64,000 nucleotides of DNA from Pseudomonadota bacterium (GTDB lineage: Bacteria; Pseudomonadota; Alphaproteobacteria; Reyranellales; Reyranellaceae), in assembly GCA_018240685.1 (NCBI GenBank), contig JAFEFG010000002.1, forward strand, positions 1-64,000, in the 5' to 3' direction. A program made the position numbers and the translations under genes. Numbering within the stretch: position 1 is the first letter of the stretch; the number at the start of each line of letters is the position of its first letter. The notes beneath the pieces were generated by a model. That model made no database searches, was not told where the DNA came from, and saw only the letters and a list, made by a program, of their open reading frames with translations. Shown piece after piece: positions 51,085 to 57,642 of this stretch.

Positions 51085-51906
51085 GTGGACAGCATCGTCC
51101 GCCGCGGATCGATCCATCTTCCGGCGCAGCGCCTCACGGCGTCCGGCGTCGAGGTCCTGGACGAGGTGGTGGCCGAGGAAGTCGCCGTGGCGCTGGTCTA
51201 CAACGGCATCAGCCATGCGGTGATGATGGCCACGCCCTGCGATCTGGAGGATCTGGCGCGGGGCTTCACCCTGACCGAGGGCATCGTCGACAAGCCGTCG
51301 CAGATCTACGACGTGGAGGTCGAGGAACTGGACGTTGGCACGGGAGCCCGCGGCATCGAGGTCCGGATCGAGATCGCGGGCGAGCGGCTGGCTGCCTTGC
51401 GCGAACGCCGGCGGACGCTGGCGGGGCGGACCGGTTGCGGCCTGTGCGGGGTCGAGAGCCTCGATGCGGCGCTGCGGCCCGTGGCGTCCGTGTCGGCCGG
51501 ACCGACCATTGCAAGGGCGGCCATCGCGCGGGCGATGGCGGCGCTTCCCGCGGCCCAGCGGCTGAACCGCGAGAACGGCGCCAGCCATGCCGCCGGCTGG
51601 GCCACCGCCGATGGTACGCTGGTCGCCGTGCGCGAGGACGTCGGGCGCCACAATGCCCTCGACAAGCTGGCCGGCGCACTGGCGCGGGAGAGGGCGGCGG
51701 GTGACGGCTTCGTCGTCGTGACCAGCCGCTGCTCCTACGAGATGGTGCAGAAGGCCGCCGCCCTGGGCGCCGTGGCCATCGCGGCCGTCTCGGCGCCGAC
51801 CTCGCTTGCGATCACCACCGCCGGGCAGGCGGGGCTGGCCCTCGTGGCCTTCGTGCGCGAGGGTCGGCTCACCGTCTATGCCCATCCGGAACGCATCGCG
51901 GCGTGA
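51085..51906 (+). CDS. fdhD: Formate dehydrogenase accessory sulfurtransferase FdhD
   Basis: FdhD of 273 residues transfers sulfur from IscS-type desulfurases to Mo-bisMGD before insertion into formate dehydrogenase. Seen: the essential Cys pair in TGCGLCGVES near residue 117, GFTLTEGIVD, GASHAAGWA, REDVGRHNALDKL and SRCSYEMVQKAA, all family landmarks. The GTG start (51085) follows the DUF992 gene closely; its stop overlaps the mobB start (GTGA). The formate dehydrogenase itself is not in the window. selA-selB-selC 8 kb away suggests it may be the selenocysteine type. Confidence 0.93.
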   Translation: MDSIVRRGSIHLPAQRLTASGVEVLDEVVAEEVAVALVYNGISHAVMMATPCDLEDLARGFTLTEGIVDKPSQIYDVEVEELDVGTGARGIEVRIEIAGERLAALRERRRTLAGRTGCGLCGVESLDAALRPVASVSAGPTIARAAIARAMAALPAAQRLNRENGASHAAGWATADGTLVAVREDVGRHNALDKLAGALARERAAGDGFVVVTSRCSYEMVQKAAALGAVAIAAVSAPTSLAITTAGQAGLALVAFVREGRLTVYAHPERIAA

Positions 51907-52412
51907 GGGGACAGCCCGTCTTCGGCGTCACCGGCTGGAAGAATGCCGGCAAGACCACGCTGGTCGAGCGTCTGGTGGCCGAGTTCGTGCGGCGCGGCTG
52001 GACGGTGTCGACGATCAAGCATGCGCACCACGACGTCGATATCGACCGGCCGGGGACGGACTCCTGGCGCCATCGCGCGGCCGGTGCGGCCGAGGTGGCG
52101 CTGGTCGGCGGCCAGCGCTACGCCATCATGCGCGAACAGGAGGAGCCGTCGCTCGCCGAGGTGATGGCGCGCCTTGCACCGGTGGACCTGGTGCTGATCG
52201 AGGGCTTCAAGCGCGAGCGGCATCCGAAGATCGAGGTGAGGGCGCCCGGCGATGCGGCCGCGCGGCCACCTCTGGCGGCGGGCGATCCCGATATCGTGGC
52301 ACTCGCGGCGGATACGGCGCCCGCGGAGTCGCACCTGCCCTGGTTCCGGCGCGACGACATCGCTGCCATCGCCGACTTCATCGCCGCGCGGGTCGCTACT
52401 TCTGTGCCTTGA
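51903..52412 (+). CDS. mobB: Molybdopterin-guanine dinucleotide biosynthesis protein MobB
   Basis: GTP-binding protein of 169 residues that assists MobA in making the MGD cofactor. The Walker A motif is GWKNAGKTTLVE (residues 11-22), with KHAHHDVDIDRPGTDSWRH and LVLIEGFKRERHPKIEV following, typical MobB blocks. GTG start overlaps the fdhD stop by 4 bases, so molybdenum cofactor maturation genes are coupled. Its 3' end overlaps the convergent FecR-domain gene by 17 bases. Confidence 0.92.
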   Translation: MRGQPVFGVTGWKNAGKTTLVERLVAEFVRRGWTVSTIKHAHHDVDIDRPGTDSWRHRAAGAAEVALVGGQRYAIMREQEEPSLAEVMARLAPVDLVLIEGFKRERHPKIEVRAPGDAAARPPLAAGDPDIVALAADTAPAESHLPWFRRDDIAAIADFIAARVATSVP

Positions 52413-55200
52413 AGGTACCGGCGGCCGTGTAGTTCGATCCCGTGACGCTGAAGTTGCCGATCTGGCCCGCGGCCGGAACGGCGCCGTTGTTGACGAATGC
52501 GCCGTTCAGCGTGCCGGTGCGGCCGCTCGTGCCGACCGCCGTGATGGAGCCGGTGAACTGTGCCGTGCCGGAACGCAGCGCCGTGCTGCCCTGGTAGTTG
52601 GTGCCGTCGAAGTTGGAGATGTTCACCGCGCCGGTCTGGGTCGCGAAGTTCCAGCTGTTCGAGTAGCCGCCGACGGCGATGTAGGAATTGCTGCCGTTGC
52701 GGACGTTGCCGATCATGTCGCCGGTGTAGGTCGCCGTACCGGTCATCGGCAGCTGCACGGCCGAGGTCAGCGTGCCCGCGACGTAGGTCGAGAGATGGAC
52801 GCGGTCCGTCCCGCCGGCATTGTAGCCGCTGTTGTAGGTGACGTCGCCGCTCCACCAGCCCCAGGTCAGGAACGAGCAGGTGCAGGCCGTGACGCCGGCG
52901 GCCGTGTAGAGCGGATTGAGAGCGGTCGGATTGGTGGTGCCGCTCACCAGGACCGTCGAGGAGGTCACGGCGCCCGGCGTCGTGCCCTGCTGGACGCTGG
53001 TGCTTCCGTTGTCCATCACGGCGTAGTTGCTGTCGTCGATGAACGCGCTCGTGCCATTGCTGGTGCCGGTCGTGCTGCCGAGATTGAAGGTGGCGGACAC
53101 GCCGTTGCCCGGGCTGCCCCAGGACGAATGCGTGATGGTGGCCGATGCGCGATTGGTGGACGCGTCGGTCGTGAGCTGGAGATTGGGCGTCGAGTCGCTG
53201 ACGCCGAAGGCAGTGGTGGTCGGACTTGCGTTCGTGAGGGTGCGCTGGTCGACGAGACCCGCCACGAAGCCGCTCAGGGTCTGCGACGTGCGCGACTGGC
53301 CAAGCGTCGAGGGCGTCGTGGTCTGCGTCGCGGTGTTGACGGCATAGTAGTCGGAGGCGCTGAGCGTCTGGAAGGGGATGTCCGCTGCCGCCTGGGAGGT
53401 ACGGGTGGTGGAGATCGTATTGATGAAGCCGTCGACGTTCGTGGTGTAGCTGGTCGAGAGCTTGTCCGGCGTCATCACGATGGCGCTCGCGTTCTGGCCG
53501 TAGATCGCATTGGCCGAGGAGCTCGCCGCGGGAGTCGAGACGGCGGAGATCAGGCGGCTCGGGCCGCTCGTGCTGTCCAGGCGATAGGTGCCGACGTAAT
53601 TGCCGCCGAAGCCGACCGACACCGTGTTGAGGTCGTTGAAGAAGTAGCCGACCATCACGCCCATGTAGGATTTCTGGTTCGCGCCGGTGCCGGAGATCGC
53701 GATCGTGGCCTGCATCGCGGTGGCGCGCTGGTCGCCCGGCCTCTGGCTGGCGGAGAAGGTCTGGGGTGCGAAGGTCGTCAGGAGCTTGGAGACGTCCTTC
53801 ACCGACTGCAGGTCGGCGTCGTCGCCGACGGTTCCGTTGGCGAACGGCAGACGGTTCGTGCCGCCGAGATTGTTCATGTCGTAGGCGGCGTAGCCGGAGG
53901 TGGGAAACTGCCAGTAGGTGGTCGTCGGCTTGCCGCCGAAGAAGCCCAGCTTCTGGTTGCTGGCATTGGTGAAGACGTAGGCGAAGAAATTGCCGTCGGT
54001 CGAGACGTAGCCCTTGCCCGAAAGCGCACCGAACGTGGGGTCGGTGAAGGATGCGATGTTGAAGGAGGTGCCGGTCTGCTGCCACGGCAAGGTGATGGAA
54101 TGCCCGTCGGCCGTCGACAGGGTCACCTGGCTGTCGTTGGTCACGGTGCCGGTGCTCTTGAGGAGCTGGTTGTTCGAGGCGACCGGCGTCACCACGAGCC
54201 CGTTCTGGCTGTAGTCGAAGGCCGAATAGGGCGTGGTCCCGACATAGCGTCCCGCGGTGACGATGACCCGTGTCGTGGTCGTCGCCGTGGACTGGCTGGT
54301 CTGCTGGTTGCGGCGATCGTCAGCCTGGACCTGCTGGACGCCGGTATTGGCGGTGTTGAGGGCGGTGTCCACGGCATTGTTCAGCCGCTGATTGAACGCG
54401 CCGGCGCCCGGACTCAGCAGCGGCTGCCCCGGCGACGGCGGCGCCCCGTTGTTCTGGCGCGAGAAGGTCTGTGCACCCCGCTCGGCGTTCGCGGCACCCT
54501 GCTGGCCGCCGGATCCGCCGCCGGACGTGCCGGAATTGCCGCTCTGTCCGCTGCTGCTCCTTCCCTCGAGCTGGGCGAGCTGGTTGGCCAGCGCGCCCTG
54601 CGCGATGAGGGTCGGCTGACCTGGCGGCGAGCCGAAGTTGGTGACGATCTGCGAACCCGGCCGCGTCGCCGTCTGGGTCTGGCCCTGCCCGGTGACCGTC
54701 ATCGAGTGGCCGAAGACGAAGGTCGAAGAGGTCGATGTCTGGCCGACCGAGAAGACGGTGATGCCGCCGCGGATGCCGATCGTTCCCGACGGGGTCGTGA
54801 TCGTGATTGGACGGCTCTTGCTGATCTTGCCGCCGACCAGCCGGAACACGCCCTTGCCGGCGTCGACGGCAAGCTCGCCCGTCTTGGTCGCGGGATCGAA
54901 CACGAATTTGTCGATGACGATGTAGGCGTTCGGCCCGACCGTCAGCGACGTGCCGTCGAGGAACACCAGATGGGCGCGGTCGTTGGCGCCGGTCGTGATG
55001 GCTTCGTTGGCCTGCACGTCGATGCCGATGCGCAGCACGCGCTGCGGCTGGGTCGGCGGCTTGCCGAGCGGATCGCCGTCGGTCGCCGATGTCACGCCCA
55101 CGCGTGCCATCGCGGCCGGGCTGCCGAAGAGGGCGACCGCTGCGGTGCCGAGCAGGACGGCGCGCAGGAAGGGAATTCTCGATGTCGCAGGACGAGCCAT
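52396..55200 (-). CDS. FecR-domain protein with C-terminal TbpB-type barrel (putative T11SS cargo)
   Basis: Exported protein of 934 residues. Residues 1-32 form a signal peptide with no lipobox. A FecR-type beta domain follows (about 55-170; VFRLVGGKISKSRPITI and TTPSGTIGIRGG), then a Gly/Ser/Gln-rich linker (about 205-330), a long Thr/Ser-rich beta region, and at about 810-934 a domain resembling the eight-stranded barrel of transferrin-binding protein B: GTATYTGDMIGNV, NFDGTNYQGST, FTGSITAVG, GTLNGAFVNNG, and a final TAAGTFKAQK. TbpB-type barrels mark cargo of Slam (type XI) secretion, and the Slam-like gene is 18 bases upstream in the same operon. GGGAGG precedes the ATG. Ligand and role are unknown. 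Confidence 0.8.
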   Translation of the reverse strand: MARPATSRIPFLRAVLLGTAAVALFGSPAAMARVGVTSATDGDPLGKPPTQPQRVLRIGIDVQANEAITTGANDRAHLVFLDGTSLTVGPNAYIVIDKFVFDPATKTGELAVDAGKGVFRLVGGKISKSRPITITTPSGTIGIRGGITVFSVGQTSTSSTFVFGHSMTVTGQGQTQTATRPGSQIVTNFGSPPGQPTLIAQGALANQLAQLEGRSSSGQSGNSGTSGGGSGGQQGAANAERGAQTFSRQNNGAPPSPGQPLLSPGAGAFNQRLNNAVDTALNTANTGVQQVQADDRRNQQTSQSTATTTTRVIVTAGRYVGTTPYSAFDYSQNGLVVTPVASNNQLLKSTGTVTNDSQVTLSTADGHSITLPWQQTGTSFNIASFTDPTFGALSGKGYVSTDGNFFAYVFTNASNQKLGFFGGKPTTTYWQFPTSGYAAYDMNNLGGTNRLPFANGTVGDDADLQSVKDVSKLLTTFAPQTFSASQRPGDQRATAMQATIAISGTGANQKSYMGVMVGYFFNDLNTVSVGFGGNYVGTYRLDSTSGPSRLISAVSTPAASSSANAIYGQNASAIVMTPDKLSTSYTTNVDGFINTISTTRTSQAAADIPFQTLSASDYYAVNTATQTTTPSTLGQSRTSQTLSGFVAGLVDQRTLTNASPTTTAFGVSDSTPNLQLTTDASTNRASATITHSSWGSPGNGVSATFNLGSTTGTSNGTSAFIDDSNYAVMDNGSTSVQQGTTPGAVTSSTVLVSGTTNPTALNPLYTAAGVTACTCSFLTWGWWSGDVTYNSGYNAGGTDRVHLSTYVAGTLTSAVQLPMTGTATYTGDMIGNVRNGSNSYIAVGGYSNSWNFATQTGAVNISNFDGTNYQGSTALRSGTAQFTGSITAVGTSGRTGTLNGAFVNNGAVPAAGQIGNFSVTGSNYTAAGTFKAQK

Positions 55201-55218
55201 GTCAGCCTCCCTGGAGAG

Positions 55219-56604
55219 CTAGAAGCGTCTGCTTATGCCGAACATGAAACTGTTGTTCTCGAACGCGTAGTTGGGCAGCGTGGCGGCTCGTACGAACCGG
55301 CCGCCCGAAACCGAGAAGGTGGTGAGGGCGTCGAACGGGACGTTCAGCACGATATTGAGAATCGTGTCGTTCTGGTAGCGCATCGTGTTGGGGTCGACGA
55401 CGGGGTCCGGCGCATCGTAGGTCCACCACTGTTCGTTGACGCTGAGATTGATGCTCCAGGGCAGCCCGGTCCTGAACAGGGGGTCGCCGAAGCGGAAGGC
55501 CATGCCGCCGCCCACGCCCACCAGCGCGTAGTTCTGGGACGGGGTCTGGACGGTCTCGTAGCGCTGTACGCTGCCGGTGCTGTAGATCGTGATGATGTTG
55601 GTGAGCTGGAACTGGAAGCTCGAATTGACGGTGAACAGCGTCCCCGTGAGCTGGTTGTTGTTCGGCAGGTACCAGGTGTTGGGATAGTCTTCCTTGCGCC
55701 AGGTGAAGGTCGTGATGTTGCGCAGCCGGTCGGACAGCAGTGCATTGCCTTCGAGACCGGCGCCATAGCTCGCGTAGTAGGGCGTGTCGTTGACCCAGAT
55801 CGCGCCGATGGCGGCGAAGGGCTTGAGCGTCACGTCCTCGAAGATGCCGTTGAAGATCTGGAATCGCGGCCCTGTCGTGAGGTCGACCAGCGACACGTTG
55901 GCTGTACTGAGCTGGAACTGGCGGTTGGCATAGGCCGTGAACAGCGTCTCCAGCATGGACCTGTCCTGGCGGCCGAAATCGTAGGTGTGGCGCAGTTGCA
56001 GCGAGCCGACCACGCCCCAGTCGGCCGTGCCGACCGCGGCCTGGTTGAGGTTGGCAGCCTGGCCGAACAGCATCACGGAGGAGGTCGCGGGACCGAGATT
56101 GGCGTTCGACTGGTAGCGCCAGCCGAAGAACGCTTCACCCGAGAACTGGGAAGGGCGCTGCTGGGCCACGACCTGCGCCATGAATTCCTCCGCACGGCTT
56201 CGCACTTCGGGCGGCAGGTTGGGCGAAGCGAGCGCGCCCTCGAGATAGGTGCGTGCGACTTCGAAGGAGCCGAGCCGGTAGTAGAGCACGCCCAGTTCGA
56301 GACGGACGCGCGGCAGGTCGGGACTGATCAGCAGCATGCGCTCGAGCGCCGACACGGCTCCTTCGAGGTCGCCGGTCTGGCTGGCGATCGTGGCGAAGCG
56401 AAACAGCACATCGAGATTGGCGGGCTGCTTCATCATCGCCTGGAACGCTTCGTCGTACTCGCGTTTCGGATCGGAGGGAGGCGCCGGCGCGGCAGTCTGC
56501 GCCTTCGCCGCGCCGGTATGCAGGGCGAGGGCGGCGAAGACGGCTCCGATTGTCACGAGGGTATGAGCGCAACGTCTCAGGCGTCGCAAAATGACCTGCC
56601 CCAC
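55219..56604 (-). CDS. Slam-like outer-membrane secretion protein (TPR + barrel)
   Basis: Protein of 461 residues. After a signal peptide (to about residue 35, AKA) come TPR-like helices (about 50-150: LFRFATIASQTGDLEGAVSAL, LELGVLYYRLGSFEVA) and a C-terminal outer-membrane barrel beginning SGEAFFGWRYQSNANL and ending in MFGISRRF with terminal Phe. This is the surface lipoprotein assembly modulator (Slam/DUF560) architecture. Slams move TbpB-barrel proteins to the cell surface. The start is GTG 56604 with no strong ribosome site. It is followed by the FecR/TbpB-barrel gene after 18 bases, a typical transporter-cargo pair. Confidence 0.78.
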   Translation of the reverse strand: MGQVILRRLRRCAHTLVTIGAVFAALALHTGAAKAQTAAPAPPSDPKREYDEAFQAMMKQPANLDVLFRFATIASQTGDLEGAVSALERMLLISPDLPRVRLELGVLYYRLGSFEVARTYLEGALASPNLPPEVRSRAEEFMAQVVAQQRPSQFSGEAFFGWRYQSNANLGPATSSVMLFGQAANLNQAAVGTADWGVVGSLQLRHTYDFGRQDRSMLETLFTAYANRQFQLSTANVSLVDLTTGPRFQIFNGIFEDVTLKPFAAIGAIWVNDTPYYASYGAGLEGNALLSDRLRNITTFTWRKEDYPNTWYLPNNNQLTGTLFTVNSSFQFQLTNIITIYSTGSVQRYETVQTPSQNYALVGVGGGMAFRFGDPLFRTGLPWSINLSVNEQWWTYDAPDPVVDPNTMRYQNDTILNIVLNVPFDALTTFSVSGGRFVRAATLPNYAFENNSFMFGISRRF

Positions 56605-56646: not shown

Positions 56647-57642
56647 CTAAATCAACCAACTCCGCAGCACATAGAGCCACGACATCGGGATCGTGGCGCG
56701 CGCCGCCTTCATGCGCAGCAGCATGCGCCGGTACTGGCGCTCGCCGAGTGCCGTCACGAATCGTTCCCGATCGCGGATCATCGCCGTCAGCATCCGGTCG
56801 AGCATGCGAGCATGGGTATCGCCCCAATTGCGCGCCGACAGGTGGAGACGGCCGCCAAGAATCGGATTGTTCGCTGCAAAATTCCGCCCATGGAGACGAT
56901 AGGAATAGAGTGCCTCGTCAATCAGCAGCGATCCTGCAACCATCTGCGCCATCACGACGATGTAGAAGTCCATGTGCAGTCGGAAGGTTTCGTCATCGTC
57001 TGGGAAAACAAGATCGATCAGCGAGCGCCGGAACATCATCGACGACGTGCTGACCCAGACCCAGTGGACCAGCCGCTTGGTGTAGAGCCGGTACGGGGTC
57101 TGCTTCTGCCAATGCGCCGCCCGCGATGCGGTATCCAGTTTGGGTACACGTTCCGGATCGATGGGCGCGAACGCACGGCCCCTGTCTGCGACGGCGCGAT
57201 CCTTGCCGAACCAGTAGACGGCGCCGGCGATCACCGCGTTCTTGCCGTCGATCAGGCGGGCATTGCAGGCCGTGAAGCCCACCGCGTAGGTCTCGTTGAG
57301 ATGCGCTGCGAGATGGCGTTCGAGGAAATCCTCGTTCCACAGATCGTCGGAGTCGAGGAAGCAGATGAACGGCGCGGTCGTGCGCGCCAGCCCCGCGCGC
57401 GTGGCGCCCGTCTGGCCCACGTTCTTCTCCAGTCGCACCAGGCTGAAGCGCGGATCGGCAAGCGCGTCGAGCGTCTGCTGGATGACGGCAGCGGAATCGT
57501 CGGTCGAGGCGTCGTCGACGATCACGCACTCGAAGTCGGTCAGCGTCTGCCGCGCCACCGAGCGGATCGCGTCGCCGATATAGTCGGCGCAGTTGTAGCA
57601 GGTGACGACGACGGAGATCTTGGGGAGATGGATGTCGGTCAT
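56647..57642 (-). CDS. Glycosyltransferase family 2
   Basis: Inverting GT-A glycosyltransferase of 331 residues. Seen: ISVVVTCYNCADYIGDAI, the nucleotide-sugar VDDASTDDS (residues 42-50), CFLDSDDLWNEDF with the metal-binding DxD near residue 98, and the C-terminal LRSW end. It likely adds a sugar to a surface glycan at the cytosolic face of the membrane. It sits between the Slam-like gene (42 bases downstream) and the dehydratase gene (38 bases upstream), all leftward. A relation to the surface protein is possible but not shown. Confidence 0.85.
   Translation of the reverse strand: MTDIHLPKISVVVTCYNCADYIGDAIRSVARQTLTDFECVIVDDASTDDSAAVIQQTLDALADPRFSLVRLEKNVGQTGATRAGLARTTAPFICFLDSDDLWNEDFLERHLAAHLNETYAVGFTACNARLIDGKNAVIAGAVYWFGKDRAVADRGRAFAPIDPERVPKLDTASRAAHWQKQTPYRLYTKRLVHWVWVSTSSMMFRRSLIDLVFPDDDETFRLHMDFYIVVMAQMVAGSLLIDEALYSYRLHGRNFAANNPILGGRLHLSARNWGDTHARMLDRMLTAMIRDRERFVTALGERQYRRMLLRMKAARATIPMSWLYVLRSWLI

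Follow-up and report, generated by a model that had tools for sequence, protein, structure and literature searches.

A FecR-headed protein with a TbpB-type barrel and its adjacent Slam-family transporter: a probable type XI secretion pair in Alphaproteobacteria

The closest described systems are those of type XI secretion (T11SS, TXISS). Slam1 carries unfolded TbpB over the outer membrane with the help of Skp (PMC9090332), and TXISS-1B exports soluble cargo bearing a TbpB_B_D domain (PMC8406197). The putative targeting domain of T11SS cargo is the C-terminal barrel, and for most T11SS outer-membrane proteins a cargo is neither known nor predicted (PMC12282271). How Slams recognise their cargo is an open question (PMC9090332). 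The DNA analyzed here is a stretch of 64,000 nucleotides (the window) that belongs to contig 173 in an assembly of 5.04 Mb. Two of its genes, 55219-56604 and 52396-55200, both on the minus strand, probably encode a type XI secretion pair in which a FecR-headed cargo is exported through the adjacent Slam. Both family memberships, the eight-strand fold of the cargo barrel, the adjacency of the genes and their co-occurrence were computed in this analysis.

The two genes were confirmed at the coordinates given in the original prediction, on the same strand and 18 bases apart, with the transporter gene (461 aa, GTG start) upstream of the cargo gene (934 aa). The pair was conserved in relatives, the closest being Enhydrobacter aerosaccus ATCC 27094, whose Slam is 88% identical, together with members of Reyranella; the host is accordingly placed in the Reyranella group of the Alphaproteobacteria. 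A transporter homologue was present in 65 of the 76 genomes of the order and a cargo homologue in 70 of the 76, often by the FecR part alone, so neither gene is a chance ORF. The annotated neighbours of the pair are a GT2 glycosyltransferase, a dehydratase, MobB and FdhD. The GT2 gene (56647-57642, minus strand) precedes the Slam gene by 43 bases in the same orientation. Its product may act as a glycosylating enzyme on the Ser/Thr-rich cargo, or the arrangement may be synteny and nothing more. mobB (51903-52412, plus strand) is convergent with the cargo gene, and the 3′ ends of the two share 17 bases (52396-52412).

The gene at 55219-56604 encodes a true homologue of Slam (SlipAM/DUF560). By inspection of the sequence, residues 1-36 (56497-56604) form a signal peptide. 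The periplasmic TPR domain (residues 45-150; 56155-56472) was assigned from TPR Pfam matches and from helices in the model, and the outer-membrane β-barrel (residues 152-461; 55222-56151) from the model (pLDDT 88.4) and the barrel profile. SlipAM (PF04575) scored 25.7 bits (cut-off 22), the only such match in the whole genome. The repeat models PF13371 (TPR_9) and PF14559 (TPR_19) were also over their cut-offs; the Slam-specific model TPR_Slam (PF24575) reached 15.2 bits against a cut-off of 35.2. A profile of 40 relatives, covering TPR and barrel, was compared with 16 canonical SlipAM proteins and aligned with them over 370 columns at 99.9% probability (E 5.7e-33). The barrel alone, taken as a profile of seven diverse members, matched canonical Slams with 98.8% probability (E 9.4e-17), so that the relationship rests on more than the TPR.

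An AlphaFold model of the transporter (pLDDT 88, pTM 0.72) contained six helices and 14 long strands. The best Foldseek matches were PelB (2e-9) and BcsC (3e-9), and the best 50 PDB matches were TPR-barrel exporters and porins with no Slam among them; the fold search was thus undecisive for this protein, and the sequence decides. Together PF04575, the profile comparison with canonical Slams and the model identify the partner as a Slam-family TPR-plus-barrel protein, as had been proposed, and not as a plain porin.

The cargo begins with an SPI-like type I signal peptide (residues 1-32; 55105-55200), assigned by inspection of the sequence, with cleavage between AMA and RV and with no cysteine in the peptide. 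It runs straight into a FecR module (residues 41-200; 54601-55080) with no cytoplasmic anti-sigma part. PF04773 was matched over cut-off at residues 67-159 (E 4.3e-9), in agreement with the N-terminal FecR domain read from the letters. The only cysteines of the protein are C773 and C775. The absence of a lipobox was therefore borne out, as no cysteine precedes C773; its description as unusual was not, because TXISS-1B cargo is also soluble (PMC8406197).

The FecR module is followed by a low-complexity linker (residues 201-318; 54247-54600) of 23% N+Q, 20% S+T and 15% G, and by a β-rich, TbpB-like passenger (residues 319-821; 52738-54246). The long Thr/Ser-rich region of the original prediction stood in composition, with 29% S+T in residues 319-800, but this stretch was predicted as ordered β structure (mean pLDDT 87.5), a passenger and not a stalk, and the low-complexity part is the linker. 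A model of residues 318-934 (pLDDT 87.5, pTM 0.89) ended in exactly eight strands, residues 822-933 (52402-52737). The first 23 Foldseek matches of this model were to TbpB without exception; next came haemophilin, HphA, NHBA (TM 0.72 by target length), the TbpB C-lobe and fHbp. TM-scores over the whole passenger were low (0.21-0.24), so membership of the family is claimed and the exact lobe arrangement is unsure.

The C-terminal 135 residues of the cargo itself gave no Pfam match, PF01298 included. Among 39 relatives, TbpB_B_D was matched by 14 (best 9e-7) and FHBP_C by 14, the Pfam models concerned being PF01298 and PF08794. The cargo family profile matched NHBA across the barrel (E 1.7e-5). 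Single-sequence searches of the PDB returned TPR matches or noise only, and the family profile was required. Taken together, the family profile (TbpB_B_D/NHBA), the model and the Foldseek matches support the expected eight-strand TbpB-type barrel at the C terminus. A CxC motif (C773, C775; 52876-52884) with neighbouring tryptophans precedes the barrel and was invariant in all 25 aligned full-length cargos; a WGxW lies near it. The motif is a possible disulphide or metal/haem site. The passenger's relatives by fold include haemophores and receptors for metal-carrying proteins, which would make a metal or haem a reasonable first guess for its ligand.

Six-frame scans of a class-wide sample of 385 genomes were performed with profiles built in this analysis. 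The cargo barrel profile was found in 37 genomes from 26 genera, the Slam profile in 63 and PF04575 in 43. Of the 37 barrel genomes, 32 had the Slam profile and the other five PF04575; all therefore carry a Slam (37/37, Fisher 1.3e-26). With the order of the window removed, the co-occurrence was 34/34 (Fisher 1.2e-24). The transporter-cargo pair recurs across Alphaproteobacteria. Strong barrel matches were nearly all FecR proteins of 600-1630 aa, many of them directly downstream of a TPR-Slam, and where a cargo stood alone a Slam was still present elsewhere in the genome. A phylum-wide search gave one match outside the class (G649).

Several loci extended this pattern. Two FecR cargos of about 1630 aa carried two C-type barrels (L142:3922-8820 and L146:4029-8891). 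One genome (G353) contained six barrel-bearing FecR cargos on different contigs (L155, L162, L164, L167, L169, L176) and a single Slam (L200) with no FecR neighbour; here one translocon may serve many cargos. A bridging case (G157/L175) combined a Slam with a strong PF04575 match (1.5e-14) with a downstream protein consisting of FecR plus a TbpB_B_D-like C terminus, the latter at 2e-4 and below the cut-off of the model. In G114 and G241 the barrel profile also picked out short cargo next to canonical SlipAM genes; in G132 it picked out short barrel proteins, with SlipAM elsewhere on the same contig.

The gene directly downstream was then tallied for distinct Slam-like loci. In 109 of 142 loci this was a FecR gene in the same orientation, at a median gap of 19 bases, 142 being the Slam-like genes with enough downstream sequence and close relatives weighing on the counts. 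In the same test a downstream FecR gene followed none of six canonical SlipAM genes (L112, L114, L115, L120, L122, L133). A barrel was detectable in only 54 of the 109 FecR partners, although diverged barrels may have been missed, candidates being L223 and L230 with FecR proteins of 935 and 965 aa; such misses would reduce the count of barrel-less partners in general and leave the short type B proteins described below unaffected. In 78 of 87 cargos, conservation was higher for the FecR module than for the barrel.

Three architectures were distinguished within the order of the window. In A, that of the window, a TPR-barrel protein is paired with a FecR-passenger-barrel protein. In B, a TPR-barrel protein is paired with a FecR protein of 290-340 aa whose Pro/Gly-rich tail leaves no room for a barrel. 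In C, a TPR-only protein of 157-185 aa is paired with a FecR protein with a low-complexity tail; about twenty such pairs were counted by coordinates. The genome of the window itself contains a further pair, of type C (L062:6326-8354; G000:C192): an exported TPR-only protein of 157 aa and, 10 bases downstream, a FecR protein of 514 aa whose tail is of low complexity, with no barrel on either side. Pairs of this type occur in many genomes of the order, some beside a mechanosensitive channel gene. From the barrel-less FecR partners, and from barrel-less TPR proteins that also have FecR, the TPR-FecR combination emerges as the most constant element. What accompanies a TPR-Slam of this kind most consistently is FecR, and not the barrel.

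In a tree of Slam proteins, 23 canonical SlipAM sequences formed a cluster (97/94) separate from the FecR-linked ones. The FecR-with-barrel label required at least 7 changes, some of which reflect contig truncation (L213), an internal stop in the cargo (L015) or barrels that have diverged beyond detection, and a single gain of the cargo barrel was rejected as unsupported on this count. As deep branches were long and labels came in part from truncated contigs, the tree was used only as support for the separation. FecR-headed cargo is best read as a recurrent class with a Slam clade of its own.

The export reading of the pair that was originally put forward is supported, the cargo barrel having eight strands and the partner belonging to the Slam family; the role of adhesin or receptor suggested with it is conjectural. 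In the proposed mechanism the 934-aa cargo would leave the cytoplasm via Sec, be cut near residue 32 and receive no lipid. It would then pass the outer membrane through the adjacent TPR-barrel protein, with its C-terminal eight-strand barrel presumably acting as the transport domain as in known cargo, and be released or held non-covalently at the surface. The FecR module might contact the periplasmic TPR domain of the Slam, for address or retention and with no signalling to a sigma factor. Alternatively, FecR could stay bound to the TPR domain while the passenger is exposed, which would provide an anchor for an unlipidated cargo.

Docking of FecR on the periplasmic TPR domain is possible, though we regard it as less likely than not. 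Many FecR partners of related Slams are without a C-terminal barrel, so barrel-directed export cannot explain everything. We tentatively consider that this Slam clade may recognise cargo from the N terminus, with FecR on TPR as the main address tag and barrel-less proteins handled as well; TPR and FecR would then be a stable periplasmic pair to which Slam and cargo barrels were gained or lost.

Two other explanations of the pair were weighed. The PelB and BcsC fold matches and the GT2 gene 43 bases away on the same strand would fit a PelB/BcsC-type exporter of polysaccharide working with that glycosyltransferase, with the FecR protein as an accessory surface protein. This is very improbable: sequence profiles tie the TPR-barrel protein to SlipAM, barrel included, and the fold search falls back on other TPR-barrels, with no Slam in its best 50 PDB matches. 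Among orthologous Reyranella loci the GT2 gene immediately preceded the Slam gene in 40 of 49, against only 3 of 94 other loci, and such an exporter would leave the co-occurrence with a TbpB-type barrel unexplained. A polysaccharide exporter was rejected on the grounds that only a GT2 gene is linked, with no synthase operon, and that the conservation of this gene does not extend beyond the genus.

Signalling is the usual function of a FecR domain. The FecR protein might accordingly remain in the periplasm for signalling or as a scaffold, bound to the TPR domain and regulating or blocking the Slam barrel, with other proteins as the true cargo, and it is in keeping with this that barrel-less FecR partners are common and that TPR-only plus FecR pairs exist with a barrel on neither side. 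We judge it unlikely for the window, where the FecR protein and its relatives bear a TbpB-like passenger of 600 aa that includes the hallmark barrel of T11SS cargo, and where no sigma factor is found among the annotated neighbours. FecR anti-sigma signalling as such was rejected, there being neither a cytoplasmic anti-sigma part nor an ECF sigma gene among those neighbours. Export of the FecR-headed protein through the adjacent Slam is preferred over both explanations.

A 2025 survey of T11SS cargo, with about ten architectures, makes no mention of FecR, and the same holds for the 2021 family paper, the NilC paper and the Slam reconstitution paper. No report of a FecR-headed T11SS/Slam cargo was found in open-access papers; subscription papers, preprints and supplements were beyond the search, and prior notice is possible. 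The FecR-headed proteins described here, which reach 1632 aa and in some cases have two barrels, would form a large class of cargo for an alphaproteobacterial Slam clade, and one that seems to have gone unreported. If this is true, FecR domains gain a role outside sigma-factor signalling. Natural variants with or without the cargo barrel, and with or without the Slam barrel, make cargo recognition directly testable.

Among known systems the window's pair resembles TXISS-1B (HrpB/HrpC; haemophilin, HphA) in that a SlipAM/DUF560 transporter adjoins a protein that is exported by Sec, carries no lipid and has a single TbpB_B_D barrel at its C terminus (PMC8406197). It differs in its far longer cargo, in which the FecR module comes first, and its Slam falls outside the canonical alphaproteobacterial SlipAM group on the tree. 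The passenger resembles TbpB over its length, as in the Neisseria Slam1/TbpB and Slam/fHbp systems, and NHBA is nearest in sequence to the cargo barrel; unlike the Neisseria Slam cargo and NHBA, the window's cargo has no lipid anchor and has an extra N-terminal FecR module. With the FecR sigma-regulators (PF04773) it shares a FecR domain over cut-off, but here the domain lies behind a signal peptide, with no anti-sigma part and no annotated ECF sigma neighbour. The window's Slam shares the fold of TPR plus outer-membrane barrel with PelB and BcsC, whereas by sequence it belongs to another family, and its GT2 neighbour is confined to the genus.
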